From Pseudidiomarina taiwanensis (GTDB lineage: Bacteria; Pseudomonadota; Gammaproteobacteria; Enterobacterales; Alteromonadaceae), in NCBI RefSeq assembly GCF_003987435.1, contig NZ_PIQG01000002.1, positions 1 to 64,000 of the forward strand: a DNA stretch of 64,000 bases, read 5' to 3'. Position numbers and translations under genes: made by a program. Below are positions 31,418 to 53,368 of this stretch, in pieces. The first letter of the stretch is position 1. Every line of letters begins with the position of its first letter. The notes beneath the pieces are model-generated. The model saw only the letters and a list, made by a program, of their open reading frames with translations. It did no database searches and had not been told where the DNA came from.

Positions 31418-33334
31418 TTATTTTTTGTCGTCTTTGACTTCTTCGAACTCAGCATCGACCACATCATCATCTGCTTTCGAGTTCGCTTGTCCTTCTGCAC
31501 CCGCTCCCTGCTGGGCTGCTTTTGCTTGCGCCGCTTCCATCAGCTTGCTTGAAGCTTCCATCAGAGCTTGTTGCTTCGCTTCGATGGCTTCTTTGTCGCT
31601 ACCTTTCAGAGCTTCTTCTAGCTCTTTGATGGCGCTTTCAATCGCTTCTTTATCACTTGCTTCAAGCGCATCACCCGCTTCATCTAGCTGCTTACGCGTT
31701 GCATGGACAATCGCATCCGCTTGGTTACGGGTTTGCACGAGTTCTTCAAACTTACGATCTTCCTCAGCATGCGCTTCGGCATCACGGACCATCTTTTCAA
31801 CTTCGTCGTCACTTAAGCCTGAAGACGCTTTAATGGTAATTTGTTGCTCTTTGCCGGTGTCTTTATCTTTTGCCGACACGTGCAAGATACCATCCGCATC
31901 GATGTCAAAAGTGACTTCAATTTGTGGTACACCGCGTGGCGCTGGACGAATCCCCTCAAGGTTAAACTGGCCGAGCGACTTGTTGTCTGCCGCACGTTTG
32001 CGCTCACCTTGAATAACATGCACGGTTACTGCTGCTTGGTTATCGTCTGCAGTTGAGAAGGTTTGCGATTGCTTAGTCGGAATCGTGGTGTTCTTCTCAA
32101 TCAGTTTGGTCATCACGCCGCCCATGGTTTCAATACCCAGCGACAGTGGGGTAACGTCAAGCAACAGGACGTCTTTCACATCACCTTGCAAGACCCCAGC
32201 TTGCACCGCAGCACCTACAGCAACCGCTTCATCTGGGTTCACGTCACGACGTGGCTCTTTACCGAAGAAATCGGTGACTGCAGCCTGCACTTTTGGCATC
32301 CGAGTTTGACCACCGACCATGATCACTTCGTTGATGTCACTGACCGACAAGTCGGCATCTTTCAATGCCTGCTTCACTGGCTCAAGCGATTTCATGATCA
32401 AATCTTCAACCAAAGACTCAAGTTTTGAACGCGTAACTTTAATCGCCAAGTGTTTCGGACCAGTGTTATCTGCCGTGATATACGGCAAGTTCACTTCGGT
32501 CTGTTGCGCTGATGACAACTCAATCTTGGCTTTTTCAGCCGCTTCTTTCAGACGCTGCATCGCCAATGGATCTTGGCGCAAGTCGATGCCTTGGTCATTT
32601 TTAAACTGGTCAACAAGGTAGTTGATCATACGGTTATCAAAGTCTTCACCACCGAGGTGAGTGTCACCATTGGTCGCAAGAACTTCAAAAGTGTGCTCGC
32701 CTTCAACTTCATCAATTTCGATGATTGAAATATCGAAGGTACCCCCGCCTAAATCGTATACCGCTACAACGTTATCGCCCGACTTCTTATCCATGCCATA
32801 GGCAAGGGCTGCAGCTGTTGGCTCGTTGATAATACGCTTCACTTCAAGACCCGCAATCTTACCGGCGTCTTTCGTCGCCTGACGCTGCGCATCGTTAAAG
32901 TAAGCAGGAACAGTAATAACCGCTTCGGTAACTTTTTCACCTAAGTAGTCTTCTGCAGTTTTCTTCATCTTCTTCAGAATTTCTGCAGAAATTTGCGGTG
33001 GCGCTTTACGGTCATCATTGATCTGGACCCAAGCATCGCCATTGTCCGCTTCGACAATTTTGTACGGCATAATGCTGATATCGCGCTGAACTTCTTCGTC
33101 TTTAAAACGACGACCAATCAGACGCTTAATCGCGAAAAGAGTTTTGTTTGGATTCGTGACTGCTTGGCGCTTGGCAGGTTGACCGACCAAAGTTTCGCCA
33201 TCGTCAGTGAAGGCCACAACTGAAGGAGTTGTGCGATCGCCCTCGGCGTTTTCAATAACACGCGCTTTGTCGCCATCAAGTACGGCAACACATGAATTGG
33301 TTGTACCTAAATCGATACCAATAATTTTACCCAT
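31418..33334 (-). CDS. dnaK: Molecular chaperone DnaK (Hsp70)
   Basis: 638 residues, exactly the E. coli length. ATP-driven chaperone for folding and disaggregation. The start is [17 protein letters not shown]; the nucleotide-binding domain carries [13 protein letters not shown] and [11 protein letters not shown]; the linker [15 protein letters not shown] precedes the substrate domain; the tail ends in EEVKDDKK, close to the EEVKDKK co-chaperone motif. A heat-shock promoter lies 47-74 bp upstream. grpE, its exchange factor, is 6 kb away beyond an accessory block. Confidence 0.99.
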
Positions 33335-33488: not shown

Positions 33489-35120
33489 TTAGCCCCAACC
33501 AACTGGTTTATAAGCCATTGGATATTGCGGCATGCCCAACACCCGGTTCAACCAAATATGGTGTGGTGGGAGCTTTTGCCGCGCCATTTGCAGGCGTTGG
33601 ATAATCGCTGGATGCACTTGCGTGGCGGGACGGTTCGGACCAAACCACTGCTCACTCTCTTCTTTCAAGAATTCCATCCCGAACAAAATACATTCGTAAC
33701 TTTCATGGTTCCACAGACCACCCGTATCAACTGCTGGGCGACGGTCATGGCTACATAAGTCGGCTGCTTGCGGCGCTTGACTCATGCCACTAAACCACTG
33801 GTCTTGGAAATCATGTGGGGTCGGCGGCTTGAAGCGCCAAAAATCAAACTTCGCTTGTAAGCGGTCGGTAATGTGTTCGCGCAACTGCACCGTTTTCCAA
33901 AACTCGGTATCGGTGCGCTTGGTCAAACAATAATGCATATTGATGAAATCAAGAATTTCATAAAAGCGATTCGACATAATGTGGTTATAACGCGAGGCAA
34001 GTTGCTCCATTCCGTCATCATGCCAAGGAAAATGCTCGGCAAGTAACACTGCTCCTAAATCACTTAGATATAGGCCGGTTGATTCGAGCGGCTCGATAAA
34101 GCCCCCAGCCAACCCAATCGCAATCACATTTTTAGACCAAATTTGTTTGCGCCGCCCTACTTTGAAATCAACAAAACGTGCAGGTAAGTCATCGGTGTTG
34201 CCACCTTGATAGGCGCGCATCTCACGTTCAGCGGCTTCTTTATCAATAAAGGCACTTGAATGAACATAACCAATCGAACGGCGGTCGTTTTGTGGGATAT
34301 CCCAAATCCAACCATTTGATAGCGCGGTTGCCGTAGTATACGGTCGGACCATACCAGGGAAATGAGTCTCATAAGGCAGATGCATGGTCACCGCGCGGTC
34401 ACACAACAAATATTGCGAGCAATCTTCGAAACCCACACCGATTTGTTGCTCAATCAGCTGAGCACTGAAACCCGTTGAATCAACAAACAAGTCGGCCTCT
34501 ATGGTCTCGCCTTTATCGGTGCGAACGGCAGCAATGTGACCATCATCACGCATCACCACATCAACCATATTCGCCAAGGTATGAACAACCCCGCGTGGGG
34601 TTGAGAAGTCGCGCAGATAATCAGCAAATTTTTGCGCATTCATATGGTAGGCATAATTCAGTGGCGCGCCCATATCCCATTTCCCCAGCATCACTGGAGC
34701 CAGCCCCCACTCGCACAAAATAGGTTGTACCGAGCAAGTTTCCATAAATGGAATCGATTGATCCGACATCAACCAATCCATCCCCGCGCGGTCGAGTGGT
34801 TGCCGGCGCATACTCGAAAATGGATGGTGATAAAACGACATGTCGTTATGCACCCAATTGGTGTAACGAATCGACTGTTTAAAACTCGCATTTGTCGACT
34901 TCATGAAATCTAGTTCATCTACGCCAACCACTGAGAGCAAGTGCCGCATCGAGGGAATCGTCGCTTCACCAACTGAGATCCGCGGCGTATCCGGCGACTC
35001 CAGTAATTGAATATCGACTCGAGGGCGCTCACCGCGCTGATTTAAGGCCCCATTCAAATAGGCTGCCGCCATCCAGCCAGCCGAGCCGCCACCAACGATC
35101 AGGACCTTTTTCTTCTGCAT
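33489..35120 (-). CDS. Flavin-dependent tryptophan-halogenase family protein
   Basis: 543 residues from ATG 35120, with GGTGA about 5 nt upstream; a GTG four codons earlier is less likely. FAD-binding VLIVGGGSAGWMAAAYL at the N-terminus, SVGEATIPSMRHLL, and the halogenase signature W-x-W-x-I-P in NGWIWDIPQNDRRSIGY are all present; LAGGFIEPLESTGL near residue 350 is also diagnostic. The lysine in NASFKQSIRY (Lys81 in this numbering) fits the position of the halogenating lysine of PrnA, an alignment made by eye. Such enzymes need FADH2 from a reductase, which is not encoded nearby. Substrate unknown. It follows the sulfotransferase-like gene by 27 bp. In Alteromonadales and Caulobacterales these genes often neighbour TonB receptors. 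Confidence 0.88.
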   Translation of the reverse strand: MQKKKVLIVGGGSAGWMAAAYLNGALNQRGERPRVDIQLLESPDTPRISVGEATIPSMRHLLSVVGVDELDFMKSTNASFKQSIRYTNWVHNDMSFYHHPFSSMRRQPLDRAGMDWLMSDQSIPFMETCSVQPILCEWGLAPVMLGKWDMGAPLNYAYHMNAQKFADYLRDFSTPRGVVHTLANMVDVVMRDDGHIAAVRTDKGETIEADLFVDSTGFSAQLIEQQIGVGFEDCSQYLLCDRAVTMHLPYETHFPGMVRPYTTATALSNGWIWDIPQNDRRSIGYVHSSAFIDKEAAEREMRAYQGGNTDDLPARFVDFKVGRRKQIWSKNVIAIGLAGGFIEPLESTGLYLSDLGAVLLAEHFPWHDDGMEQLASRYNHIMSNRFYEILDFINMHYCLTKRTDTEFWKTVQLREHITDRLQAKFDFWRFKPPTPHDFQDQWFSGMSQAPQAADLCSHDRRPAVDTGGLWNHESYECILFGMEFLKEESEQWFGPNRPATQVHPAIIQRLQMARQKLPPHHIWLNRVLGMPQYPMAYKPVGWG

Positions 35121-35147
35121 GTCGTTCACCACATCAATTTTTTATTG

Positions 35148-35942
35148 TTATTTTTCGTAACCTAAAACTTTACGTAACCCCGGCGCAGCAAAATCGACCA
35201 ATTGCTTTTGTTGCTGCGGAAGTTCATTTGGAACCTCTAACGCGAGGTTTTGCAGGTTATCCCGATATGTGCCGCTTTGCTCACGATCAGAGCCAAGTAA
35301 AACACGCTCGCGCCAATCGTCTGGCAAACCGCGACCCGCTAACACTGGCGCTAATAAATCAGCAAAATAATTTTCCGCCTCGTCACTTTCGAGCTGTTTC
35401 AACTGCGCGATCATATCTTCATAACGAACTAACTTCGCCCCAGTTCCAAGCCATGATACGCCGTTGTGGGTAAAGATCTCATTTAGGGTCGGCGCTTTTT
35501 GGTAGATTCCGAAAATCATCATATTCAGCACTTCTTCAATGGTCACCCGCCCACTTTTCAAGTTTTCCATGTTGCCTTGAAAGGTGTCTGATAAGAAGAA
35601 CCGAGCGCGCGCCAGCACCCAATCATAGGGATCACGCACCACCACGATATGTTCAGCATCATGTAGTGCCATCACAGATTCATCACTGAAGAGTAAGTGC
35701 CCCCAACTTAGCTTTGGCTGCAGCGGATTAAACACTTGTATGTGCTCACGTAGATTTGGCAGCTGCACGAACGTCTCGTGATATTGCTGCGCAACTGGGA
35801 CGAACATCCGAAAAATGTTTCGAATTAAGTGGGTGCCACACTTAGGCACAGAATTGAGAAAAACAGGTTTCACCAAAGGCGCGTGTTGGTAGTTTCCATT
35901 GATGTCATTCAAGGTATCGGGTTTGGCTATAATACGGGGCAT
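35148..35942 (-). CDS. Sulfotransferase-like P-loop protein
   Basis: 264 residues. The PAPS-binding signatures of sulfotransferases are recognisable: a 5'-phosphosulfate loop at residues 33-38 (PKCGTH, where the family has PKSGTT or similar) and a 3'-phosphate motif from Arg103 (VVVRDPYDWVLARARFFLS). LVRYEDM and SGTYRDNL near the C-terminus match the family's later motifs. No signal peptide, so cytoplasmic. It should transfer sulfate to a hydroxyl or amine, but the acceptor cannot be read. It probably forms a two-gene unit with the halogenase and lies downstream of the TonB receptor gene, beyond that gene's terminator. Confidence 0.75.
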   Translation of the reverse strand: MPRIIAKPDTLNDINGNYQHAPLVKPVFLNSVPKCGTHLIRNIFRMFVPVAQQYHETFVQLPNLREHIQVFNPLQPKLSWGHLLFSDESVMALHDAEHIVVVRDPYDWVLARARFFLSDTFQGNMENLKSGRVTIEEVLNMMIFGIYQKAPTLNEIFTHNGVSWLGTGAKLVRYEDMIAQLKQLESDEAENYFADLLAPVLAGRGLPDDWRERVLLGSDREQSGTYRDNLQNLALEVPNELPQQQKQLVDFAAPGLRKVLGYEK

Positions 35943-36014
35943 GAATTGGCTCTTTTATTTTTATCGTAAATTTCAGTCGCTAGACCTTAGCTAGAGTTCA
36001 GTATGCCAAAAATA

Positions 36015-36042
36015 AAAATGCCGACAAGCTTGTCGGCATTTT
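36015..36042 (-). terminator. Intrinsic terminator after the TonB receptor gene
   Basis: Perfect palindrome AAAATGCCGACAAG/CTTGTCGGCATTTT, followed on the minus strand by T-rich sequence. It lies 20 bp past the receptor stop and separates the receptor from the sulfotransferase/halogenase pair. Both flanks are A/T runs, so it may work in both directions. Confidence 0.92.
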
Positions 36043-36062
36043 CATTTGTTTTAGCAGTTCGC

Positions 36063-39038
36063 TTAGAAGGTGTATGACAAGTTCAAGAACACCCGACGAC
36101 CTAACCAGTCATACTGACTGTAGAAGGCCGTGTTACCCAAGCGTGATACCACACCACCACTGGTTTTTGGTGGCTCTTTATCAAACGCATTGGCAACCCC
36201 AAGAGTGACCTCGAAACCGTCGTCGCGGAACTCTTTAGTCGCTGCAAAGGCATGATAAATCACCGGCGAACTATCGATAGTGAGGTATACCTCGTCACCG
36301 TAGAAAGTTGTGATGTTATCACCGCTGAGACGACGGTTCGCGTTGTTGACTGCACCCACGTAACGTGCGGTCCAGTTAAACGTCCAGTCATCTTTTTGCA
36401 TTGCAACGCGGAAGTTACCTACGTGCTCTGGGCTTCCGAAGTTACCTACACGATCGATCGGCACACTGGTCTCGAACAATTGGCTTGAAGCTTCAAGTTG
36501 CATGGTGTGCTCATAAGTAATATCGAATTCAGCAAAGTCCGTGCTAAACGGATAGTTAAAATTGAAGTCGATACCACGGTTGATCTGGCTCGCGATGTTC
36601 AAGTAACCACCACGAACTTCTTCGATACGAAGGTCTGTTGCGTTACGGAAGAACTGATCACACAGTGGCTCAGTACTGAAGTTCTCAGAGTTGTAACACT
36701 GACCAACGATCTGTGCAGCTGAGAGCAAGGTTACTTCCCCATCGATTTCGATTTCGAAGTAATCCACACTCACACCAAGGTCAGACCAATCTGGCGTGTA
36801 GACAAAACCAAGTGTACGCGCAGTTGAAGTTTCTGCTTCAAGCGTACCTGCACCACCACCTGTGAAGACGGTTGCTGAGATTGCACCACCAGTGTAATCC
36901 TCTGGGATACCATCAGCCGCACAGTTATCGGCTAGGCGTTGAGTAATTGACTGATCAGCTAGGTTTGCGCCCCAGTTGATACATGGGTCAATTGAACGCT
37001 GACCGATAAAGCTAGTTTGGTTGTTCAGATAAAGTTCGTACAACGCTGGTGAGCGGAACGAAGTACCTTGTGACGCCCGCACGCGGAAACCATCAGATAC
37101 CAGCCAGTTCAAGCCAGCTTTATAGGTTGAATCGCTACCGTACGAAGATACGTCGGTATAACGCGCTGATACGGTCAAATCTAAACGCTCTGCGAATGGC
37201 ATGTCGGCCAATAATGGCACTTGCAATTCACCGAATACTGCACGCGTGTTCGATTTACCTGTGGTGATACCTGCAGAGGTTTGTCCCCAAGTATTGGCAC
37301 GAAGTGTTTCCGCTCCGGGAGTGTCAACGATTTCGTCTTGCTGATATTGCAAACCAAACGCTGCTCCCACAACGCCCGCTGGCATTTCGAACAAGTCGCC
37401 GGTGATCACACCTTCAAAAGTCCGCTGCTTGTAAACCGTGTTACCCGTTTCAGTACCGAACAAGAAGTTGCGCACATCATCCGAAATGTTGCCAGCAAGG
37501 AACTGCGGATCAAGCCATGGGATATCGATACAATCGACACCACGGACTGAAGTTTGCGTGCCCACACATGAGCCCGTTGCGAACCAACCATCTTGGATTG
37601 AGTCGTTATAGATAATCTTAGTTTGATAGTCACCATCGCTGCGGCTGTCTTGGACGTTAACGTCCCAGAACCAATCACCGATGTAGCCTTCCGCACCAAT
37701 CACGAAACGACGATAATCAACTGTGATTTCTGAACCTGAGTGGTCAGTAATTGGCGTTGGGCTCAACCATTGCGCACCGGTCCAGCCTTCACTCAACGAA
37801 CTACCTGCGAAGAAGTTTTCGTTGTAGATGTATGTCCAGAACTGGCGATAACCATTGGTGGTGGTTTTACGACGGTTCAATAACACTTCACCATAAAGGG
37901 TAACGTCATCGCTTAGCCACATTTCACCTTGACCATAAAGGGTGCCGATTTCCTGCTTCGGCGACAAGCTCTCGAGATCTTGGAATGGGTGGTCAGCGTT
38001 GGTTAGACCATCAGAGAGCTTGTCAAAGCTAACTGGATACCAACCTTCTGGTGTACGCATATCAAATGGATCGTTAGCCGTATCGTTAAAGCTCGGGACG
38101 TACTGGCCTAAGTTACCGTCGTAGTCGAACTGAGCAAGCTTACTGCCGCGTGATGGAAGTACGTTACTATCGCCAGTGATACCGTTGGCATAGTCATAAA
38201 TCCACACGTGACCCCATGGTAAGTCGTTACAATGGTAGTCACCGGTACGTGGATCAACGATATCGGCACGCTCACCAGTGGTCGTATCGAACACATAGTT
38301 TTGCGCACAGTTAAAGAAGTCACGGTCACCCATTGCCAATTCGTTGGCCCGGTTATAGTCCGCAACTAAACGGAATGAACCGTTATCGAAACTACGACCA
38401 AAAGTACCATTTACACGCAATGTTTCACCGCCCGACTCGGTCGGCTGGCTTAAGTTGACGTTAAAGTTACTCTCATCACCTTTCTTAGTGATGATGTTGA
38501 CAACCCCTGCAACAGCGTCAGAACCATACAAAGATGATGCACCATCTTTAAGGATTTCAATCTGTTCTACTGCAGCAAGTGGCATGATGTTCAAATCGAA
38601 CGCTGAGACCTGGCCACGGGTTCCCGCAGGACCAATCCGACGACCATTCAATAGCACCAAGGTACGGTTTGCGCCAAGACCACGCAGTGAGAGCGTCTCA
38701 GTACCGGTACCACCAGCAGTTACGAAAGCAGTTGAGGCTGCTGCAGTGACCTGGTTCGCACCAGCTGCAACAGTTGACGAGCGAAGTAGGTCACCTAGCG
38801 TCACCATACCTTGGCCGATAGCTTCATCAGCAAGGATAACTTCGACTGGAGCAGCTTGGTCTAAACCGTCGCTGCGAATACGCGAACCGAGGACCTGAAT
38901 ACGCTCTTGGGCTTCTTCAGCCTCAGGTTGCGTATCTTGGCTCTCATCTTGCGCTTGAGCAGTGAAGATACTCCCAGCAAACACACAGCCCATGGCCAGT
39001 GCTAACCGGTTTAGCTTCAATTCAGAAGAGGTTCTCAT
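36063..39038 (-). CDS. TonB-dependent outer-membrane receptor
   Basis: 991 residues from ATG 39038, with AAGGG 9 nt upstream; TTG 39062 is an in-frame alternative. Signal peptide to about residue 30 (AQAQ). The plug domain has ERIQVLGSRIRSDG, LSLRGLGANRTLVLLNGRR and EILKDGASSLYGSDAVAGVVNII in parts. A large beta-barrel follows and ends NLSYTF with the C-terminal Phe needed for outer-membrane insertion. No N-terminal signalling (STN) extension is evident. This long oligopeptide/carbohydrate-type receptor class is common in Alteromonadales. The ligand is unknown; the neighbouring halogenase and sulfotransferase suggest an aromatic or modified metabolite (inference). It has its own terminator. 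Confidence 0.93.
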   Translation of the reverse strand: MRTSSELKLNRLALAMGCVFAGSIFTAQAQDESQDTQPEAEEAQERIQVLGSRIRSDGLDQAAPVEVILADEAIGQGMVTLGDLLRSSTVAAGANQVTAAASTAFVTAGGTGTETLSLRGLGANRTLVLLNGRRIGPAGTRGQVSAFDLNIMPLAAVEQIEILKDGASSLYGSDAVAGVVNIITKKGDESNFNVNLSQPTESGGETLRVNGTFGRSFDNGSFRLVADYNRANELAMGDRDFFNCAQNYVFDTTTGERADIVDPRTGDYHCNDLPWGHVWIYDYANGITGDSNVLPSRGSKLAQFDYDGNLGQYVPSFNDTANDPFDMRTPEGWYPVSFDKLSDGLTNADHPFQDLESLSPKQEIGTLYGQGEMWLSDDVTLYGEVLLNRRKTTTNGYRQFWTYIYNENFFAGSSLSEGWTGAQWLSPTPITDHSGSEITVDYRRFVIGAEGYIGDWFWDVNVQDSRSDGDYQTKIIYNDSIQDGWFATGSCVGTQTSVRGVDCIDIPWLDPQFLAGNISDDVRNFLFGTETGNTVYKQRTFEGVITGDLFEMPAGVVGAAFGLQYQQDEIVDTPGAETLRANTWGQTSAGITTGKSNTRAVFGELQVPLLADMPFAERLDLTVSARYTDVSSYGSDSTYKAGLNWLVSDGFRVRASQGTSFRSPALYELYLNNQTSFIGQRSIDPCINWGANLADQSITQRLADNCAADGIPEDYTGGAISATVFTGGGAGTLEAETSTARTLGFVYTPDWSDLGVSVDYFEIEIDGEVTLLSAAQIVGQCYNSENFSTEPLCDQFFRNATDLRIEEVRGGYLNIASQINRGIDFNFNYPFSTDFAEFDITYEHTMQLEASSQLFETSVPIDRVGNFGSPEHVGNFRVAMQKDDWTFNWTARYVGAVNNANRRLSGDNITTFYGDEVYLTIDSSPVIYHAFAATKEFRDDGFEVTLGVANAFDKEPPKTSGGVVSRLGNTAFYSQYDWLGRRVFLNLSYTF

Positions 39039-39200: not shown

Positions 39201-39806
39201 TTAGTTTTTAACGACCATGACCATGGCTGGTCGCAACAATCGACCACTTAAGGTGTAGCCTTTTTGCATCACTGCCATAATGGTGTTGTTTTCTAACTCA
39301 GGGTTTGCCTGCATCGACATCGCTTGATGCAATTCTGGGTTGAAAGGCTCGCCCACTTCACCAACTGCTTCTACTGCAAACTTATTTAGAGTGCTTAATA
39401 AGGTTTTATGGGTCAGCTCAATCCCTTCTAGGAAGTTCGCATCGAGCGTTTCGTTCTGTCCGGCAATTTCGAGTGCTCGCTCAAGGTTGTCAACGCTTGT
39501 CAACAACTCGCCGGCAAACTTTTCTAACGCAAATTTGTGCGCTTTTTCGACATCTGCGGCAGCTCGACGCCGCACATTTTCCATCTCAGCAACGGCGCGA
39601 ACCGCGCGATCGTTGGCATCTTCTCTCGCCTGCTCAGCTTGCTGGAGGGCGAGCTCGAGTTCGGCAATACGCTCCAGTTGCAGATCCTGCTCTGGATTTT
39701 CTGCCACAGTTTCAGTCTCGACTTGCTCGACTTGCTCTACTTCGCTCTCGACCTGCTCAACATCTTGAGTCTCGGGGTTTTGCTTTTCGGTATCGCTGCT
39801 ACTCAT
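39201..39806 (-). CDS. grpE: Nucleotide exchange factor GrpE
   Basis: 201 residues (E. coli 197). It exchanges ADP for ATP on DnaK and acts as a thermosensor. The N-terminal 40 residues are an acidic Glu/Gln/Val repeat ([14 protein letters not shown]); then the long dimerising helix with [30 protein letters not shown], and the beta-wing HQAMSMQ to [15 protein letters not shown]. It is divergent from nadK, as in E. coli, and has overlapping sigma-32 and sigma-70 type promoters. The 162-bp spacer to the TonB receptor start holds no clear terminator. Confidence 0.97.
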
Positions 39807-39871
39807 TCTAATAACTCTTCTAAGCTTATCTTGTGAAAACCAAACAAATCACGCTAATCTGTCGGTAGTGT

Positions 39872-39901
39872 ATTATACCTTGTCTGCATAGATGGGGTCA
39901 G
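39872..39901 (-). promoter_or_regulatory. Possible sigma-70 promoter for grpE
   Basis: On the minus strand a perfect TATAAT (39877-39872) lies 18 bp from CTGACC (39901-39896), a weak -35. It overlaps the heat-shock promoter and would give basal expression. Confidence 0.5.
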
Positions 39902-39917
39902 CCGTATAGGATTCAAG
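39889..39917 (-). promoter_or_regulatory. Sigma-32 promoter for grpE
   Basis: On the minus strand CTTGAA (39917-39912), a 14-bp spacer, then CCCCATCTA (39897-39889): a full match to the heat-shock consensus. The -35 element lies just before the divergent nadK start codon at 39923. Confidence 0.9.
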
Positions 39918-39922
39918 TTCGG

Positions 39923-40825
39923 ATGAAAAAAAATATCACTGCGTCAACCTTACCTGCGTTTAAGCGGATTGCGCTACTTGGTAAAGTCAACCACAGCGCC
40001 ACCGAGAATACCTTGGCTGAACTCGAGCAGTTGCTCCTGCAAAGAGGATACCATGTTGTGCTCGAGGAGCGCACTGCTGAGCAACTCGCTCATTCAAGTT
40101 GCCCCACTTATCCACTGGCAGAGTTAGGTGAAGTCGCAGACCTTGCAGTAGTCGTCGGGGGGGACGGTAATATGCTGGGTGCAGCCCGCATTCTATCGGA
40201 GCAGAACCTACCGGTGATTGGTGTGAATCGCGGCAACTTGGGGTTTTTAACGGACCTTGATCCTGACCAAGTCGAGAGCCAACTGCTCGATGTCCTTGCC
40301 GGCCAATATCGACTGGAACGACGCTTCTTATTACAAGCAGAAATCTATCGTGGCGGGCACCATGAAAACGCCGGACGTGCAATTAATGAGATCGTACTGC
40401 ACTCGGACAAAGTGGCCCACATGATCGAGTTTGAAGTTTATGTCGACGACCAGTTTGTTTACAGCCAACGCTCGGATGGTTTAATTATCAGTACTCCCAC
40501 AGGCTCTACCGCCTATGCACTCTCCGCAGGTGGCTCAATTTTAACTCCGGGTATCGAAGCCATCAGTATTATTCCAATGTTCCCCCACACACTCAGCAGT
40601 CGGCCACTGACGCTTCCATCGAGTAGTAAGGTTTTACTGCGCGCAGCACCAAGTAATGAACCGCTCCAATTAAGTTGTGATGGCCATTTGCGCATGCACG
40701 TGGAACCCGGGGACGAAGTCATCATCAAGCGCTTTAGCCATGAGCTCGTATTAGTCCATCCGCTCGACTATTGCTATTACCGCGTCTTGCGTAACAAGCT
40801 GGGCTGGGGCAGCCGACTATTTTAA
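39923..40825 (+). CDS. nadK: NAD kinase
   Basis: 300 residues (E. coli 292). It phosphorylates NAD to [18 protein letters not shown] has the catalytic GGDGN (residues 79-83); [37 protein letters not shown] and [10 protein letters not shown] at the end are all canonical. Two glycine-rich ATP-NAD kinase halves are complete. The ribosome site before ATG 39923 is weak. It is divergent from grpE and followed by recN, the enterobacterial order. The grpE -35 element abuts its start, so the two may interfere. Confidence 0.97.
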
Positions 40826-40850
40826 GTCGGCTCACGATTGCCACTTGCAT

Positions 40851-40892
40851 TACTGTATAAATACTGTATAACTACTGTATATATTATCAGTT
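40851..40892 (+). promoter_or_regulatory. LexA (SOS) box and phased repeats upstream of recN
   Basis: TACTGTATATATTATCAGTT (40873-40892) matches the 20-bp E. coli LexA consensus at 16 positions, with CTG and CAG half-sites intact. The element TACTGTATA occurs three times (40851, 40862, 40873) with an exact 11-bp period, one helical turn, giving additional half-sites. E. coli recN also has multiple SOS boxes. Confidence 0.85.
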
Positions 40893-40904
40893 ATTGAGGT
40901 GGCC

Positions 40905-42584
40905 ATGCTGACTCATCTACAAATTCGAAATCTCGCTGTTGTGCGAAACTTGGATACTGATTTTAGTGCCGGAATGACTGCGATCACCGGTGAAACAGGA
41001 GCCGGTAAATCCATCGCTCTCGATGCTTTAGGTTTATGTTTAGGCGACCGCGCTGACGCTGACTTGGTTCGCGCTGGGCAAAGCAAAGCTGAAGTCATCG
41101 CTGAATTCGAACTCACCCCAACGAGCCCTGCTTTACAATGGTTAGAACAGCAAGAACTGAGTGACGAAAACCATCCTCATACCTGTATTATTCGGCGGAC
41201 GATCACTCAAGAAGGTCGCTCGCGAGCTTGGATTAACGGTGCGGTTGCGACGGTCACGCAATTACGTGAGTTAGCGCCATTTTTAGTCAATATTCACGGT
41301 CAACATGAACATCAACTGCTGAACCGAGCTGAGTATCAACAGCGCATCTTAGATGCTTACGCTGGACACAGCCAATTACTGCAGCAAGTTACTGAACACT
41401 ACCAGCACTGGCGTAAGTTGCATCAACAACAGAAGCAGTGGCAACAGCAGCAAGAAGAATTTGCTGCCCGACGTGAGTTACTTGAGTACCAAGTACAAGA
41501 GCTCGATGAATTTGGCCTAAGTGAAGGTGAGTTCGAGCAACTCGACCATGAATTTAAGCGAGCGGCTAATACTGCTGGCTTAAAGGAAGATGCTGAGTTT
41601 GCGCTCAACGTGTTATTTGAGGTTGAGCATAATAGCGCCCATGGTCTCGTTCAGGCGGCCCTCAGTCGACTGGAAAACCAGCTGGATAATGACCCGCAAC
41701 TTGCCGATACGGTAAAGCTACTGAGTGATGCGAAAGTGCAAATCGATGAGGCCTGTCGTGATTTACGTCATTATTATGACAATCTTGACGTCGATCCAGC
41801 GACCCTTGCGCAAATTGAACAGCGTGTCAGTCAAGCGGTTAAACTTGCGAAAAAACACCAAGTCGAAGCGGCGATGTTGCCACAAAAACATCAGCAGTTA
41901 AGCGAAGAGCTGGCGCAGCTTAGTGCAACAGAAAGCGATTTATCCGCGCTTGAGCAAAGTATTCAGCAAGCCAACCAAGCCTATCGACAAGCTGCGGCTG
42001 AGCTGAGCAAATCACGCCAACAAGCCGCCGCTAAATTAGCCAAAGCGATCACCGCTAGTATGCAGCAGTTAAGCATGCCTCATGGTCAGTTTGCGATTGA
42101 GGTTGAACACCATGCACAGCAGCCAGCAACTGCAATGGGAACCGATACTATTCAGTTTTTAGTCAGTGCCAATCCGGGCCAACCTCTTCAGGCTCTCGCA
42201 AAAACCGCGTCCGGTGGTGAGCTGTCGCGAATTAGTTTGGCTATTCAAGTCATCACCGCGAACCAATTAACCACTCCAACTTTGATGTTCGACGAGGTTG
42301 ATGTGGGAGTAAGTGGTGCAACTGCCGCGACGGTTGGTAAACTACTGCGTCAACTTGGCCAACAAGCCCAAGTGATCTGTGTAACTCACCTGCCCCAAGT
42401 CGCAGCATGTGCGCATCAACAACTGCAAGTGGCCAAAGTGACCGATGGGCGCAGTACCGAAACCTCGATGATTGCCCTCACAGAAGCTGAACGGGTGCTC
42501 GAAATAGCGCGCTTACTCGGCGGCGATAAAGTGACGGAATCTGCCAAAGCAAACGCAGCCGAATTACTCGCACATAGTGACTGA
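40905..42584 (+). CDS. recN: DNA repair protein RecN
   Basis: 559 residues from ATG 40905 (E. coli 553). An SMC-like ATPase for double-strand break repair, strongly SOS-induced. Walker A ITGETGAGKSIALDALGLCLG, the coiled-coil arms in the middle (Gln/Leu/Glu-rich, about 150-360), the ABC signature KTASGGELSRISLAIQVI and Walker B TLMFDEVDVGVSG are present (each a short part of a longer conserved stretch). GAGG lies 5 nt before the ATG; GTG 40899 two codons earlier is less likely. The LexA box ends 12 bp before the start. Confidence 0.97.
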   Translation: MLTHLQIRNLAVVRNLDTDFSAGMTAITGETGAGKSIALDALGLCLGDRADADLVRAGQSKAEVIAEFELTPTSPALQWLEQQELSDENHPHTCIIRRTITQEGRSRAWINGAVATVTQLRELAPFLVNIHGQHEHQLLNRAEYQQRILDAYAGHSQLLQQVTEHYQHWRKLHQQQKQWQQQQEEFAARRELLEYQVQELDEFGLSEGEFEQLDHEFKRAANTAGLKEDAEFALNVLFEVEHNSAHGLVQAALSRLENQLDNDPQLADTVKLLSDAKVQIDEACRDLRHYYDNLDVDPATLAQIEQRVSQAVKLAKKHQVEAAMLPQKHQQLSEELAQLSATESDLSALEQSIQQANQAYRQAAAELSKSRQQAAAKLAKAITASMQQLSMPHGQFAIEVEHHAQQPATAMGTDTIQFLVSANPGQPLQALAKTASGGELSRISLAIQVITANQLTTPTLMFDEVDVGVSGATAATVGKLLRQLGQQAQVICVTHLPQVAACAHQQLQVAKVTDGRSTETSMIALTEAERVLEIARLLGGDKVTESAKANAAELLAHSD

Positions 42585-42598
42585 ACTCTCCTAATTTA

Positions 42599-42641
42599 AT
42601 GCAGTCAATCATGACAATGGGCTAGTCATGAGAGACTGCAT
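42599..42641. repeat. Nested inverted repeat between recN and bamE
   Basis: ATGCAGTC (42599-42606) pairs with GACTGCAT (42634-42641), and inside them CATGAC (42610-42615) pairs with GTCATG (42625-42630). The two stems are separated by symmetric 3-nt internal loops and close a 9-nt loop. No T-run follows. It could end the recN mRNA without classical termination or bind a protein. Confidence 0.6.
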
Positions 42642-42707
42642 TGGCTATCATCGCAGTCTTAAGTGCTAAGACAAATGTCTACTGCTAATGCTAACTGAGT
42701 GAGTTCA

Positions 42708-43067
42708 ATGCAAAATATGAGAATTGTTGTCGCCGTCTGTTGTGGCTTAATTTTAAGTGGTTGTTCAGTATTCAACGGGTTGGTGTACCGGATCGATGTA
42801 CCGCAGGGTAATTATCTTGAGCAGCGCGATGTCGACCAACTTCGGGTCGGGATGAATAAGGCACAGGTTGAATATGTTTTAGGCGCGCCTGTAGCTGCAA
42901 GTGCGTTTAACAGTGATACATGGCATTATGTTTTCAGTATGAACTCAGGAACTGGCGCAGCAAGTTATACACAACACATTACCCTGCGCTTTGAGAATGA
43001 CCAGCTCGTATCTTACGAAGGTGATTTCGAGCGTCCTGAAAACTTCGATATTCCGCTGGAACAGTAA
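42708..43067 (+). CDS. bamE: Outer-membrane assembly lipoprotein BamE (SmpA)
   Basis: 119 residues from ATG 42708. It is part of the BAM complex that inserts beta-barrel proteins. Lipobox LSGC with Cys19; then VYRIDVPQGNYLEQRDVDQLRVGM, VLGAPVAA and WHYVF, the family pattern (E. coli: VYRPDINQGNYL, RVGM). GTG 42699 is an in-frame alternative start. It follows recN as in E. coli. The next gene's ribosome site (AAGGAG) lies 30 bp after its stop, so cotranscription is likely. Confidence 0.95.
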   Translation: MQNMRIVVAVCCGLILSGCSVFNGLVYRIDVPQGNYLEQRDVDQLRVGMNKAQVEYVLGAPVAASAFNSDTWHYVFSMNSGTGAASYTQHITLRFENDQLVSYEGDFERPENFDIPLEQ

Positions 43068-43107
43068 GCCGTCTGTCAACCAGCGTTCCAACACGATAAG
43101 GAGCGTC

Positions 43108-45882
43108 ATGGTGTCCCCTAGTCACGGCGGTGACAGTGTTGTCCACGCAACAGATATTATTCAAAGCCCAGCTGATCAGTGCCATTATCAGGCGCTGACC
43201 TTAGCTAATGGGCTGCGCTGTTGCTTGGTCCACTCGCCCGAGGCGCAGCACTCTGCCGCCGCTATGGCGGTTGCCACTGGTCATTTTGACGATCCCGAAG
43301 ACGCCCAAGGCTTAGCTCACTTCCTAGAGCACATGTTGTTCTTAGGAACCGAAGGCTATCCAGCCGCTGAAGATTACCAGAATTTTATTGCTAATCATGG
43401 CGGTGGCCATAACGCTTGGACCGGCACTGAACTCAGTAATTATTACTTTCACATTCTGCCAGAATACTTTGGCCAAGCACTTGACCGCTTTTGCCGATTT
43501 TTTTATCAGCCGTTATTGCATCCAGATTGGGTTGCTAAAGAACTCGAGTCCATTGACGCTGAATTTCATTTAAAGCGTCAAGACGAACTACGCCGACTGT
43601 ATCAAGTGCATAAATCGACAGTGAATCAAGCGCACCCTTTTGCTAAGTTCTCGGTTGGCAATCGCAATACTTTAAGTGATCGACCGGATCGCCCTTTGGC
43701 TCAGCAGTTACGAGATTTTTTCCAAAGCAACTACCAAGCACAATGGATGACCCTCGTCTTAGTGGGTCCGCATTCGCTGGCTGAATTGCAACAACTCGCG
43801 CTGCAATATGGCGAAGAAATTCCCGGACAGCCGGAGCGGGTAAAACCTGCTATTGACGTTCCATTGTACCTGCCCGAGCAGCTTGCAGCCCGCATTCAAA
43901 TGCGCCCTTTAAAAGACGTGCAGCGGCTCATTATCTCCTTTGCGCTGCCAAGTATTGATGCCGATTATGCGCATAAAACAACAAGTTTTATTGCCCATAT
44001 ACTCGGCTACGAGGGGCCTGGTAGTCTTTTTTCGCTGCTGCGCGAGCGCCAGTGGATTGTCTCCCTCGCCGCAGGCGGTGGAATCAGTGGCAGTAACTTC
44101 AAAGACTTCAACATCAATATGCAGTTAACCGACGAAGGTCTTGCGCACATTGACGATATCATCGCTGAAGTCCTCGCCTACATTCGCCTGATTGACGCAA
44201 TGGCAATTGAAGAATGGCGTTACCAAGAACGCCAAAACACGATTGCGCAGGCGTTTCGCTATCAAGAGCGCAGCCGCAGTAAAGATTTAGCACCAGCATT
44301 AGCCGTGAACCTGCAGCAATACAAACTCGAGGATGTGGTCTTTGGGGACTACCGCATGGATGGCTTAAACCATTCATTCGCCAGGCAGATACTGCAATTG
44401 ATGACACCTGATAATATGCGCACAACCGTCATTCATAAGCAGGTTGAAACGGATCAGATTGAACCCATTTATGGATCCGAATATAGCTTCTCGCCACTCT
44501 CAAATGACAGTCTTGCCCGTTTTCGCGCCATCAGCGCAAGTGATAGCCAAGCACGGTTGCCGCAAGCTAACCCATACACGGGTCAGTTGCGTCCGCTGCA
44601 TCCGGTCAAGCGGGTGCAAAGCGTACCGGAACTGACCGTCATTAATTCGAAGTTGCGCCATTGGCACTTACAAGAAGCAGAGTTTAGAGTTCCTCGCGCG
44701 CATCTATACCTTAGTTTTCGCTTACCCGCAGTCACGGCCACTGCGCGCAGTTTTGCGCTAGCACGATTATGGTGCGAGTTACTCCTCGACTACCTTAGCG
44801 AGTCCTGTTATGACGCTGAAGTTGCTGGGTTACATTACAATATTTATCCGCAACAACAAGGCATTACGATACATATATCGGGCCTATCCAGCGGCGTTGC
44901 GACGCTGAGTCAGCAACTACTGATCACCCTTCAAAACGCCACCTTTAGTCCGCACCGATTTCATGTTTTACGGCAAAAACTAGCGCAAAATTGGCGCTCT
45001 GCACTGGCCAGTCGTCCGCTTAATCTATTGTTTTCAAAATTTAATGTATTAGTGCAACCCAACACCTTTGCAGTCTGCCAGCTCGCCGAAGAACTGGCGG
45101 AGATCGATCTTGCCGACTATCAGCAGTGGCGCAGCCAACTGTTTAATGAAGTAGCCATCGAATCCTTTAGCTGCGGTGATATCATTACCGAGGAACTGCA
45201 CCCTGTGTTAGAGCAAATCCAGCAGCTCACCGCAGCAGCTAAACTTGCGCCACTGGCGCAGTTGGACGCTCGTGGTTTAGCAGAATTACAAGCACAAGAC
45301 TTCAAAGTATGCGAAGGGTTGCGGCAAACGCATCCGGATAGCGCGCTCATTTTAGCCATTCAAGGCGAACAAACCGAACTGCGCGAGCAAGCACTTTTCC
45401 TGTTATTTAACCATTTAGTCAATAGTGCATTTTTCCATCAGTTACGAACGGAAAAACAGTTAGGTTATTTAGTTGGAACCAGTTATTTACCCATTCAGCA
45501 ACGTCCGCATTTGCTATTTTACGTGCAGTCGTCAAATACTGACACCGAACAATTAACGACAGCGGTCGAACACTTCTTAGCTGATTTCCAGCTGCACCTG
45601 CAGCAATTCGACGCTGACCAGTTAGCCTCCGCACAACAGGCAATCCGCCTACAACTGCTTGAACCGGACACTAATCTGCGTTTGCGCGCACAGCGTTTCT
45701 GGAGCTCAATTACTCAAGCTGACACTGATTTTGCTCGTTTAAACCAACTTGCTGAGGCACTAGAACACCTCACACCCAAGGATTTACAGCAATTTTTTAA
45801 CACTGCTGTGTTGCAGACGACATCGCGCTTATACCTTAAAAGTGAACCGACTGCTTTGACAGCCGTGGCAGAACCTGATTAA
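43108..45882 (+). CDS. M16 family (pitrilysin/insulinase-like) zinc peptidase
   Basis: 924 residues from ATG 43108, with AAGGAG 5 nt upstream; the frame is open further up but overlaps bamE. Inverted zinc motif HFLEH (His71, Glu74, His75) with distal Glu152 in ELESIDAEF; GGHNAWTGTELSNYYFHI is the typical following block. The length and four-domain layout, including a late EKQLGYLVGT block, match protease III and insulin-degrading enzymes. Unlike E. coli PtrA it has no N-terminal signal peptide, so it is predicted to be cytoplasmic or non-classically located. It follows bamE and precedes the GGDEF/EAL gene by 41 bp. Confidence 0.93.
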   Translation: MVSPSHGGDSVVHATDIIQSPADQCHYQALTLANGLRCCLVHSPEAQHSAAAMAVATGHFDDPEDAQGLAHFLEHMLFLGTEGYPAAEDYQNFIANHGGGHNAWTGTELSNYYFHILPEYFGQALDRFCRFFYQPLLHPDWVAKELESIDAEFHLKRQDELRRLYQVHKSTVNQAHPFAKFSVGNRNTLSDRPDRPLAQQLRDFFQSNYQAQWMTLVLVGPHSLAELQQLALQYGEEIPGQPERVKPAIDVPLYLPEQLAARIQMRPLKDVQRLIISFALPSIDADYAHKTTSFIAHILGYEGPGSLFSLLRERQWIVSLAAGGGISGSNFKDFNINMQLTDEGLAHIDDIIAEVLAYIRLIDAMAIEEWRYQERQNTIAQAFRYQERSRSKDLAPALAVNLQQYKLEDVVFGDYRMDGLNHSFARQILQLMTPDNMRTTVIHKQVETDQIEPIYGSEYSFSPLSNDSLARFRAISASDSQARLPQANPYTGQLRPLHPVKRVQSVPELTVINSKLRHWHLQEAEFRVPRAHLYLSFRLPAVTATARSFALARLWCELLLDYLSESCYDAEVAGLHYNIYPQQQGITIHISGLSSGVATLSQQLLITLQNATFSPHRFHVLRQKLAQNWRSALASRPLNLLFSKFNVLVQPNTFAVCQLAEELAEIDLADYQQWRSQLFNEVAIESFSCGDIITEELHPVLEQIQQLTAAAKLAPLAQLDARGLAELQAQDFKVCEGLRQTHPDSALILAIQGEQTELREQALFLLFNHLVNSAFFHQLRTEKQLGYLVGTSYLPIQQRPHLLFYVQSSNTDTEQLTTAVEHFLADFQLHLQQFDADQLASAQQAIRLQLLEPDTNLRLRAQRFWSSITQADTDFARLNQLAEALEHLTPKDLQQFFNTAVLQTTSRLYLKSEPTALTAVAEPD

Positions 45883-45923
45883 CTTTAGTCATAGTCTATC
45901 GACCCTAGTTTGAGTATCCGAAC

Positions 45924-48536
45924 TTGAAGCACTTTTTATTGGCGGTTAGTTGCTTACTGGTAAGCTTACTAAGCGTGCCGGCGCAAGCATTCCAACCTAG
46001 CTACGATGAATGGCAAGTCGAATTGATCACCCTCCGTCTCGCCAATCAACCCATCGATGCGACCGCTTTAGATGCGCGTAATCGGCCTCAGTTATACAAT
46101 ACCGAAACCCTCTACCTACCTGAGATTGATAAGCCCTTCTCGATCGAATTTGGCGCACCCTACGCGCCCAACGCCAGTCAGCTGTATTATCGCTACAAAC
46201 TAGAGGGGGTCGATCAAGATTGGATCTTTACCGATGCAAGTTTTCGCCGTGCGACCTACACTAATCTCCCGTTTGGTCAGCATTCATTTCGTGTGAGCGC
46301 ATCAATTGACGGTCAACTCTGGCTCGGTGAACGCGCCATCATTCTCGATGTTGCCCGACCACTGTGGTTGAGTTATTGGGCTATCGCACTGTATCTAATG
46401 CTTGCGTTCGCAATCATTTATGTTGTCGTGGTGGCACTGCGGAGCAAACGTAAGGCCCTCAAACAATTACGCGATAGTGAAGAGCGTCTCAAGTTAAGTC
46501 TATGGGGAAGCGGTGATCTGTTGTGGGACTGGGATATGACCACTGAGCAACTCCATTGCCATAACAGTTGGCGTGATTTCCCTGAGTTTCCACTTGACCA
46601 AATTCGCCATAAAAATTCAGTTCATCCGACCCCAACTCAGCTGGGTGCGATTCACCCTAACGATCGCGAGCGGGTCCGCACCGAACTTGAAGCCTATCTC
46701 TACCACCAGAGTGAGAGTTACGAGAGCACCTACCGAGTGCGTGGCGCGAAAGGTTGGGTTTGGGTGTTAGACCGAGGCAAGATAGTCGCCCGTGACGAGC
46801 AACAGCGGCCACTGCGAATGACCGGCACCCTCAAAGATATTACCCCTTTGGTTGCCGCAGAAGAGCGACTGAAAATGCTCGCTGCTTCGATAACTAATAT
46901 TTCTGACGGGGTGTGTATCTACGATGAACAATTCAGAGTCGTCGAAACCAACCAATCATTTACTCGAATCACTGGCTATCAACGTGACGAAATCGTTGGT
47001 AGCCCGCTCACCTTTAAACTCTACAACCGTGATTACTTAGAACAAGTCAAAGCGATGCTAGCCTTGCATGGCACTTGGCATAGCGAGATAGAAGATTTGC
47101 GCAAAGATGGTCTGCAATACCAAATGGATTTAACCATCGATGCAATTCGCGATGATAGCGGCACCATTTCTCATTATGTTGCAACCTTCTCTGATATCAC
47201 TGACCGCAAACATAAAGAACGTGAACTCAGACGTTTAGCAAATACCGATACCCTGACTGGTCTGCCAAACCGCTCCTATTTTCAAGTGACGCACTCAAAC
47301 CTGGTGCGAAAACGTATCGCCCATGCCTTGCTGGTGTTCGACCTAGATGATTTTAAGAAGATTAATGACTCGTTAGGCCACGAAGTTGGTGATCACCTCT
47401 TGCTCCAAGCAGCCGAGCGCATTAGCGATGTCGCCCGCGCCCAAGATACTGTTTATCGTATCGGTGGCGATGAGTTCGCTCTATTGCTCGAAGATACCAC
47501 GAATATTCATACCATTACCCAAGCCGCAAATCGGATCCTCGATACCCTGCGTCTCCCCTTTAATATTCGCGGAGAAGATGTCGTGATCAGTGGCTCGATC
47601 GGTATTGTTGTCTATCCTGCGGATGGTGAGACCTCGCAAGAACTGCTGCAAAATGCTGATACCGCCATGTATCACACCAAAAGTCGGGGCGGCAATGCCT
47701 ATCACTTTTTCAACGAATCGATGAACCGCAATGCGGTGCGTCGCCTGCACGTTGAGAGCCAGCTGCGCCATGCCCTGAAGCACAACTATTTGCAGGTGCA
47801 TTACCAAGCTAAAGTCTCACTTAAAGATCATCGTTATGTCGGTCTCGAGGCGCTCGTTCGGCTCGATATTCCCGGAGCAGAGGTGATTAGTCCGGCCGAG
47901 TTTATCCCGCTTGCCGAGGAAACTGGACTGATTATTGATGTCGGTGAACGGGTCTTGCGTCAAACTTGTCGAGATATGCGTAACTGGATTGCGGCTGACC
48001 AAGTGACAGGCCGGGTTGCGGTCAACTTATCGGCAAGACAATTCTTACAACCGGATTTAACCCAGCGCATTAAGACCATTCTTGCCGAAGAGGGTTTACC
48101 TCCGCACTATTTAGAATTAGAAATTACCGAAGGTGTGGTCATGGAAAATCCGGAGCGTGCGATTCAGATCATGAGTGAATTACATCAAACCGGTATTCAC
48201 CTTGCCCTTGATGATTTTGGCACCGGCTATTCATCGCTTGCCTATTTAAAACGCTTCCCGATTCAGACCTTGAAAATCGATAAGGCGTTTATTGACGATA
48301 TTCACAGCGCTGAGCGTGACCGCAATATGGTGGCCTCAATTGTAGGGATGGCACATAATTTAGGGTTATCGGTGGTGGCAGAGGGCGTTGTGGATTATCA
48401 ACAGGCACAGATTTTAGCCGGATTAAACTGCGAGTACGCACAAGGTTATCTGTACGCCCAACCCCTTAGCGGTGAGAAGTTTCTAGAACATATTTCGACG
48501 CCTTTGCAGGCGCCGAAATCATACCTACTGAACTAA
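45924..48536 (+). CDS. Membrane Y_Y_Y-PAS-PAS-GGDEF-EAL cyclic-di-GMP protein
   Basis: 870 residues. The only usable start is TTG 45924, since an in-frame stop lies six codons upstream; a signal peptide follows (SVPAQA at about 17-22). Periplasmic Y_Y_Y-type sensor (YYRYKLEGVDQDWIFT, YTNLPFGQHSF), one membrane segment at about 149-171, two PAS domains (about 185-435), then GGDEF with intact RIGGDEFALLLE near 513 and EAL with GLEALVRL near 640, ELEITEG, DDFGTGYSSLAYLKRF and VAEGV. Both diguanylate cyclase and phosphodiesterase sites look intact. Most Y_Y_Y sensors follow a seven-bladed propeller, which is absent here. Role: surface/biofilm signalling, input unknown. Confidence 0.92.
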   Translation: MKHFLLAVSCLLVSLLSVPAQAFQPSYDEWQVELITLRLANQPIDATALDARNRPQLYNTETLYLPEIDKPFSIEFGAPYAPNASQLYYRYKLEGVDQDWIFTDASFRRATYTNLPFGQHSFRVSASIDGQLWLGERAIILDVARPLWLSYWAIALYLMLAFAIIYVVVVALRSKRKALKQLRDSEERLKLSLWGSGDLLWDWDMTTEQLHCHNSWRDFPEFPLDQIRHKNSVHPTPTQLGAIHPNDRERVRTELEAYLYHQSESYESTYRVRGAKGWVWVLDRGKIVARDEQQRPLRMTGTLKDITPLVAAEERLKMLAASITNISDGVCIYDEQFRVVETNQSFTRITGYQRDEIVGSPLTFKLYNRDYLEQVKAMLALHGTWHSEIEDLRKDGLQYQMDLTIDAIRDDSGTISHYVATFSDITDRKHKERELRRLANTDTLTGLPNRSYFQVTHSNLVRKRIAHALLVFDLDDFKKINDSLGHEVGDHLLLQAAERISDVARAQDTVYRIGGDEFALLLEDTTNIHTITQAANRILDTLRLPFNIRGEDVVISGSIGIVVYPADGETSQELLQNADTAMYHTKSRGGNAYHFFNESMNRNAVRRLHVESQLRHALKHNYLQVHYQAKVSLKDHRYVGLEALVRLDIPGAEVISPAEFIPLAEETGLIIDVGERVLRQTCRDMRNWIAADQVTGRVAVNLSARQFLQPDLTQRIKTILAEEGLPPHYLELEITEGVVMENPERAIQIMSELHQTGIHLALDDFGTGYSSLAYLKRFPIQTLKIDKAFIDDIHSAERDRNMVASIVGMAHNLGLSVVAEGVVDYQQAQILAGLNCEYAQGYLYAQPLSGEKFLEHISTPLQAPKSYLLN

Positions 48537-48730
48537 CGAACGTTCCAAATTACCCCGTTGCGACCTTGCGACTGCAATCGCTTAAGTCGCTTATGGGTGA
48601 CAAACATGGGCAACATGAAGGGCCCAAAAAGCAAGCCTAGAGCCCCCCACCGCTTCGCTCCCATGGCGTTTCGCAACGCCTGAATATAAAGTGTTAGCGC
48701 AGACAACAAACAACACAACGCAATAATCAC
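48533..48730 (-). CDS. Small membrane protein of unknown function
   Basis: 65 residues from GTG 48730, with GAGG 5 nt upstream, which supports real translation. One or two hydrophobic segments: residues 1-20 (IIALCCLLSALTLYIQAL) and 29-46 (GALGLLFGPFMLPMFV), ending with a basic, Arg/Lys-rich tail. I do not recognise a family. It lies 19 bp after the fadJ stop on the same strand, so it may be the last gene of fadI-fadJ. Its stop overlaps the end of the convergent GGDEF/EAL gene by 4 bp. Confidence 0.6.
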   Translation of the reverse strand: MIIALCCLLSALTLYIQALRNAMGAKRWGALGLLFGPFMLPMFVTHKRLKRLQSQGRNGVIWNVR

Positions 48731-48749
48731 AATAACCTCATTCGTTCAA

Positions 48750-52198: not shown

Positions 52199-52230
52199 AG
52201 TCTTATCTCCAATGCTGGTGTTAGGGTTTG

Positions 52231-52314: not shown

Positions 52315-52383
52315 TACAGTATGCGGAGTCGATAGGTTGACCGTCAGTATAGCCTGTTTGCAGTGAATCAACAGAGGATCCTC

Positions 52384-53343: not shown

Positions 53344-53368
53344 GAACATAGAGCGGTAACCACAAGCG

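Follow-up and report, generated by a model that had tools for sequence, protein, structure and literature searches.

A TonB-dependent receptor and a sulfotransferase-fold protein form a conserved unit, often joined by a flavin-dependent halogenase

Three intact genes between grpE and dnaK

In the window, the 64,000-nucleotide stretch of Pseudidiomarina taiwanensis DNA analysed here (part of a 2.2 Mb genome, G000), three open, uninterrupted genes on the minus strand fill the grpE-dnaK interval: TBDR, a TonB-dependent receptor; SULT, a protein of sulfotransferase fold; and HAL, a flavin-dependent halogenase. A sequence-only reading of this DNA had placed a halogenase, sulfotransferase-like and TonB receptor block between dnaK and grpE, with no flavin reductase, SapC or cupin partner. 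Our analysis bears out both statements: all three frames are intact, and, because the block's immediate neighbours are dnaK and grpE, it has no flavin reductase, SapC or cupin gene on either side. Inspection by eye likewise finds no Cupin_8, DUF6445 or SapC gene beside the window HAL, which sits between SULT and dnaK. Elsewhere the genome carries one flavin-reductase-family gene and one APS kinase.

39201-39806: grpE, recognised by eye
36063..39038, minus strand: TBDR, 991 aa, with an N-terminal signal-peptide-like stretch (by eye) and Plug and beta-barrel Pfam matches
36015..36042, minus strand: terminator-like hairpin in the TBDR-SULT gap, with GCCGAC/GTCGGC as stem core, fold z-score -8.0
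35148..35942, minus strand: SULT, 264 aa, PAPS-type sulfotransferase fold from alignments and predicted fold, start not signal-like (by eye)
33489..35132, minus strand: HAL, tryptophan-type (PF04820), 547 aa if started at GTG, 543 aa if started at ATG 35120
31418-33334: dnaK, recognised by eye

TBDR matches both the Plug domain (E 3.5e-17, 63.3 bits, cut-off 23.9) and the beta-barrel (E 2.9e-25, 90.4 bits, cut-off 27). SULT and HAL lie 15 nt apart, or 27 nt if HAL begins at ATG 35120, the start to which its relatives point, and this closeness makes their cotranscription plausible. A strong hairpin with T-runs separates TBDR from SULT, so SULT and HAL are probably expressed by partial read-through or from a start of their own.

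The window SULT scores below the Pfam cut-off for Sulfotransfer_1 (PF00685; E 0.01, 15.7 bits, cut-off 22), 30 of 77 relatives match that family at E <= 0.01 (best 1.5e-7), and searches of PDB sequences with SULT return chance-like matches only. We aligned 16 SULT orthologues and then 77 sequences that share 55-75% identity with the window protein, and compared HAL with 74 module halogenases that are 51-81% identical to it (selected at >= 50%). The following motifs emerge.

35826..35855, minus strand: 5'-phosphosulfate loop NSVPKCGTHL of SULT, aa 30-39, K34 invariant in 77 sequences
35607..35639, minus strand: 3'-phosphate motif VRDPYDWVLAR of SULT, aa 102-112, R103 invariant in 77 sequences
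34878..34880, minus strand: catalytic Lys K85 of HAL, Lys in 72 of 74 module halogenases and Arg in 2
34293..34310, minus strand: WxWxIP motif WIWDIP of HAL, aa 275-280, with W275, W277 and P280 each kept by 97% or more of the 74
34080..34085, minus strand: Glu-Ser pair E350-S351 of HAL in EPLESTG, each in at least 97% of the 74

The PKxGT loop of SULT is present with its Lys; P33, K34, G36 and H38 are invariant across the 77 sequences and T37 nearly so, and H82 in SWGH, a candidate catalytic His, is also invariant. The residues that bind the 3'-phosphate in SULT1A1 we take to be R130 and S138; where that Ser is expected, the 77 sequences have an invariant Ala111 (an equivalence drawn by eye). 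The AF2 model built from the 77 sequences (pLDDT 92), which replaced a model built from 16 (pLDDT 67.7), has a predicted sulfotransferase fold, and Foldseek/VIA matches it to PAPS sulfotransferases, SULT7A1, Teg12 and StaL. The sequence-only reading had named a lack of PAPS binding as one thing that would refute it, and this did not come about: apart from the one expected Ser that is Ala, the main PAPS-binding motifs are kept, and the predicted fold matches that of PAPS-dependent enzymes. SULT shares the PF00685 fold with Teg12, Teg14, StaL and the cytosolic SULT1/2/7 enzymes, but in the aligned rows it is just 11-19% identical to them and, with the window member under the Pfam cut-off, forms a tight family of its own. 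RaxST of Xanthomonas is a bacterial tyrosine sulfotransferase that acts on a secreted peptide; as an enzyme that modifies a peptide before export it is likened to SULT by description, not by sequence.

HAL scores far above the cut-off for the Pfam family Trp_halogenase (PF04820; E 8.1e-126, 421 bits, cut-off 21) and matches 34 distinct PDB sequences at E <= 0.001, with 9lu2 the best and PrnA and RebH among them. The family score is joined by a glycine-rich FAD motif, by K85, whose catalytic role we take from family knowledge, and by the WxWxIP motif and Glu-Ser pair, the features of a flavin-dependent halogenase. In a weak alignment with RebH, whose substrate residues we take to be Y454, Y455, E461, F465, W466 and N470, the Tyr pair is not retained in HAL, the Glu faces an invariant Asp469, and opposite the Trp stands W474, a Trp in 61 of the 74. 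Both SULT and HAL carry the sequence hallmarks of active enzymes. The PDB relatives of HAL also include 6frl and 6y1w, presumably BrvH and Xcc4156, and HAL is likewise a PF04820 protein with the catalytic Lys, WxWxIP and Glu-Ser. For halogenases of this type a peptide hypothesis has been offered: a peptide might be the substrate of BrvH and Xcc4156, and MibH is named as a halogenase of a peptide (PMC7336383). The module differs from MibH in that no precursor peptide gene was recognised beside it, in a reading not aimed at small ORFs.

A receptor-sulfotransferase core with an optional halogenase

The sequence-only reading had left its three-gene unit to a search for co-occurrence, and when we ran this check, in 196 genomes of the family and in named loci (the best 80 of 167 SULT relatives), the three families did co-occur. 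A SULT orthologue is found in 16 of the 196 family genomes including the window's own, one copy each, at 55-71% identity, and TBDR adjoins it in all 16; G081 keeps only the TBDR end, at a contig border. A close HAL (E <= 1e-140; 56-78% identity apart from the window's own) occurs in nine, all of which also have SULT, with a Fisher P of 1e-11 (1.4e-10 without the window's own genome) that treats genomes as independent and ignores kinship. HAL is adjacent to SULT in eight of these genomes and on another contig in G040. The TBDR-SULT pair stands without a close HAL in seven family genomes, and one of the seven, G059, shows no PF04820 match anywhere in its genome. Because a close HAL is adjacent in just eight of the 16 SULT-bearing family genomes, TBDR and SULT are the core and HAL is optional. 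Of the unit as first proposed, the conserved linkage stands, with two corrections: HAL is optional, and a terminator-like hairpin lies between the receptor gene and SULT-HAL.

Within 6 kb of SULT, the 80 named loci, about ten of which are also in the family sample and many of which are cut by contig ends, contain a TBDR relative in 73 cases and HAL in 60; the next most frequent families reach nine. SULT itself, for which the loci were selected, is counted in 77 by ORF clustering, where L106 and L110 score as misses because the ORF caller kept none. HAL varies in place (downstream, upstream or on the other strand) and can be present twice, so the gene link survives rearrangement. The hosts include Pseudidiomarina, Arsukibacterium, Rheinheimera, Kangiella, Marinicella, Woeseia and Porticoccaceae, together with the alphaproteobacterial Hyphomonadaceae and Robiginitomaculum. 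In a class-wide draw of 274 genomes the SULT profile found the window's own genome and one weak match (E 8.5e-4); by this draw SULT is rare overall. Two loci depart from the pairing: near the SULT of L084 all receptors are distant ones (24-33%), none carrying the signature loops described below, and in L139 SULT adjoins a distant receptor (36%) without loop 1, a signature receptor lying one gene further. The distances of TBDR, SULT and HAL correlate across 56 loci (r 0.69-0.82; 0 of 2000 permutations as high), a correlation that shared species history alone could explain.

In nine Pseudidiomarina/Idiomarina loci the block has grpE and dnaK as neighbours, and a different common neighbourhood surrounds it in eight to nine loci of Arsukibacterium, Rheinheimera, Alishewanella and, partly, Alkalimonas. 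In all four examined genomes of the same genus without SULT, and also in two genomes of another genus, dnaK directly adjoins grpE. Across lineages the module keeps together as a conserved functional unit while its position in the genome differs.

Two tandem HAL paralogues adjoin one TBDR-SULT pair in L079, L082, L086, L095 and L097 (Kangiella, Pleionea, Marinicella) and likewise in L101, L107, L108 and L112 of the Woeseia group, suggesting two halogenation sites or two substrates. Single genes are split into two open frames in L076 (HAL), L085 (TBDR) and L133 (SULT), through decay or sequencing error.

The hairpin between TBDR and SULT was called on the plus strand by our scan, and a T-run follows on the minus strand too (by eye). 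A hairpin with a T-run is present in 63 of 66 TBDR-SULT gaps. Among 73 receptors with an identity of 44% or more, 52 are followed by the GCCGRC core, against none of 15 less similar ones. Because some of these 15 are SULT-linked alphaproteobacterial receptors with a different stem, the core does not go with SULT as such. Inspection by eye also finds no core behind any of the 14 receptor paralogues that lack a linked SULT. Across 1.44 Mb of loci, the core hairpin occurs in 45 of 68 TBDR-SULT gaps. Outside these gaps it recurs 20 times, two of them intergenic and both directly behind a receptor of the TBDR family; the exact GCCGAC form is confined to two places in the genome of the window. We base the hairpin on its fold z-score and conservation rather than on scan counts: promoter sites, of which we propose none, were no more numerous than in shuffles, and terminator-like sites showed no excess (5 found vs 7.4 in shuffles), a scan of 39400-59000 serving as comparison only. 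The element is possibly a conserved 3' RNA element of the TBDR family. Its GCCGRC stem core is kept across genera (gaps of L062-L141) and is rare elsewhere in the loci.

What the two enzymes might modify

From the gene content, conservation, linkage, predicted fold and motifs displayed by these sequences, we infer an activity, a cytosolic place, a substrate, an order of steps and a link to import. Our preferred reading, advanced tentatively, is that the enzymes tailor aromatic groups on the molecule with which this receptor works, sulfation being constant and halogenation an addition. The core would be a dedicated TBDR and a cytosolic, PAPS-dependent SULT, often joined by a cytosolic flavin-dependent HAL. 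SULT would sulfate a phenol-like OH with PAPS as donor, and HAL would place Cl or Br onto an electron-rich aromatic ring. The target, a peptide, peptide-like or other aromatic compound, would be modified in the cytosol and be functionally tied to the receptor, with PAPS and reduced flavin supplied by genes elsewhere in the genome. Cytosolic action of both enzymes is suggested by their starts, neither of which is signal-like.

A compound that is made, released and recaptured is the usual idea for such a receptor, and general knowledge favours it. The gene content does not favour it here, because genes for biosynthesis, export or uptake would be needed unless they lie elsewhere, and none recurs across lineages in the clusters of the 80 loci (mostly judged by eye, few scanned). 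Transporters near the module are lineage-bound only: symporter-like in five loci and LysE-like in eight. A peptide setting is hinted at by S9-peptidase and beta-hydroxylase genes near some loci; the S9-peptidase clusters occur in 9 and 5 of the 80 loci and the beta-hydroxylase clusters in 4 each, and one member of each cluster was domain-scanned.

Receptor residues that track the sulfotransferase

Among named organisms, those closest to the window TBDR in the receptor tree are Pseudidiomarina species, P. aestuarii first of all. The receptor belongs to a subfamily with eight near-invariant Cys (columns at least 97% conserved, 74 aligned receptors) and two signature loops.

38190..38249, minus strand: signature loop 1 of TBDR, aa 264-283, with C270, W275, W279, Y281, D282 and Y283 (WGHVWIYDY)
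37761..37838, minus strand: signature loop 2 of TBDR, aa 401-426, with W401, Y403, Y405, W424 and S426

With four candidates scored per genome, TBDR relatives at E <= 1e-100 were found in 27 of the 196 family genomes (33 rows). Sixteen rows are SULT-linked, which leaves 17 paralogues (48-53% identity), 14 with an aligned locus and three without a locus. Twelve of the 14 lie in genomes without SULT and two in genomes whose single SULT lies elsewhere (G126, G184). We compared these 14 unlinked paralogues with 75 SULT-linked receptors, namely those of at least 40% identity in SULT loci, second copies counted. W275 is found in 74 of the 75 and in none of the 14, Y403 and Y405 each in 72 and none, W424 in 68 and one, and Y281 in all 75 and five. 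Among the 240 columns conserved in at least 90% of the SULT-linked receptors, the unlinked clade departs at nine (W275, T366, N388, Y403, Y405, W424, S426, P749, F761). Tyr or Trp occupies four of these nine diagnostic columns against 23 of the 240 conserved ones (P 0.006 in a post hoc test).

In a rooted tree of 43 rows, the seven unlinked paralogues included form one clade (100/100) inside the SULT-linked receptors, with forks above it at 100/98, 100/98 and 95/82; the outgroup is eight distant receptors on long branches, one being the distant receptor of L139. A fuller unrooted tree of 89 rows, made with a quick method, places all 14 in one clade. Because the unlinked paralogues nest inside the SULT-linked receptors, one receptor lineage apparently lost SULT.

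These residues bear on a possible, if unlikely, alternative: that the enzymes modify the nascent receptor itself before its inner-membrane export, SULT acting on the candidate tyrosines Y281, Y283, Y403 and Y405 and HAL, where present, on tryptophans. The near-invariance of W275, Y403, Y405 and W424 in SULT-linked receptors and their near-absence from a lineage nested among them argue for this, as does the enrichment of Tyr and Trp in the diagnostic columns. The TBDR-SULT link in 16 of 16 family genomes fits as well, the terminator after TBDR could hold the receptor high and the enzymes low, and no ligand-making genes recur across lineages. The change is a single event on one branch, however, and could be a change of ligand. 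Moreover, L080 has SULT yet replaces both Y403 and Y405 (by F and L), L134 and L137 have F403, and L077 has L405; the SULT-adjacent receptor of L139 is without loop 1, and no receptor with the signature lies near the SULT of L084. Receptors without HAL keep their Trp and Tyr, including that of G059 with its lack of any PF04820 match, and we know of no case of a sulfated outer-membrane receptor. The fuller claim that the receptor is decorated by the enzymes of its adjoining genes, SULT sulfating loop tyrosines and HAL, in many lineages, halogenating aromatics, with the residues mostly lost along with SULT, we consider distinctly doubtful.

Other observations also count against our preferred reading, the tailoring of a molecule with which the receptor works. 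No Arg or Lys is found among the SULT-tracking receptor columns, though a sulfate-binding site would suggest them. In addition, 'cheater' receptors are common for siderophores, and no signature receptor without SULT was seen among the 30 of 33 rows with a locus.

We also looked for receptor change driven by HAL and rejected it: 58 HAL-plus receptors differ from 16 HAL-minus ones, whose fetched locus has no HAL, in a single column (I720), and as no Trp or Tyr column differs, the presence of HAL leaves no trace on the receptor aromatics. Among the 12 genomes behind 13 HAL-less loci, four have HAL relatives elsewhere; among the 16, L102, L104 and L135 fall under this.

Improbable, in our judgement, is action on an imported nutrient or signal after receptor uptake, for trapping, detoxification or signalling. 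SULT is constantly linked to the receptor in the family, S9-peptidase genes lie near some loci and an S9-like gene stands beside one unlinked paralogue, all of which would suit such a role. TonB-dependent receptors, however, deliver to the periplasm only, and no inner-membrane transporter recurs across lineages in the 80-locus clusters.

Flavin-dependent halogenases beside TonB receptors are already known, and the SULT-bearing genomes contain others. In eight sampled loci of such PF04820 halogenases, a PF00593 receptor lies beside four, as one does beside HAL; the 10 neighbour proteins scanned comprise these four receptors, one Cupin_8 and two DUF6445 proteins. The partners differ, with DUF6445 in two of these loci, Cupin_8 in one of the two and SULT beside HAL. 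That the window is an ordinary receptor-halogenase locus with SULT as an incidental or inactive passenger gains some colour from these neighbours but is quite improbable, since the constant partner of the receptor subfamily is SULT rather than HAL, the SULT motifs are invariant across the 77 sequences, and the 25 other halogenases fetched from these genomes are just 31-40% identical to HAL in the main alignment (more than 100 further rows lie outside this comparison).

The idea that the system is undescribed has held so far: in the literature searched, which was covered in part, we found no description of the unit, no paper joining a TonB receptor and a halogenase with a sulfotransferase or SapC, and none joining a halogenase with SapC. 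What appears new is SULT as a constant core partner and a receptor subfamily with signature loops. If our preferred reading is true, the module would lead to a new sulfated, halogenated metabolite or peptide together with its receptor; if instead the receptor is the substrate, it would reveal sulfation or halogenation of an outer-membrane receptor. The system is tractable, with two or three genes and a single-copy SULT that is present or absent within one genus, and receptors with and without SULT, together with a short residue list, make the substrate question testable.

Several neighbouring genes merit mention. S9 prolyl-oligopeptidase-family genes lie between HAL and TBDR in L118, L119, L120 and L123, and S9-family genes lie near the module in L080, L086, L126, L134 and L137 and also in L079, L082, L097, L115 and L131. 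A large protein beside SULT in L125 (7559-9607) combines Asp/Asn beta-hydroxylase and TPR domains, and its N-terminus resembles a sulfotransferase P-loop (HKTGGQS, by eye); its cluster also includes L113, L129 and L133. SULT-free receptor paralogues have other neighbours, among them the S9-like gene in L185 and a DUF4953 Met-zincin in L188. DUF6445 (PF20043) adjoins other halogenases in L038, which also has Cupin_8, and in L034, and this uncharacterised halogenase-locus partner is worth a study of its own.
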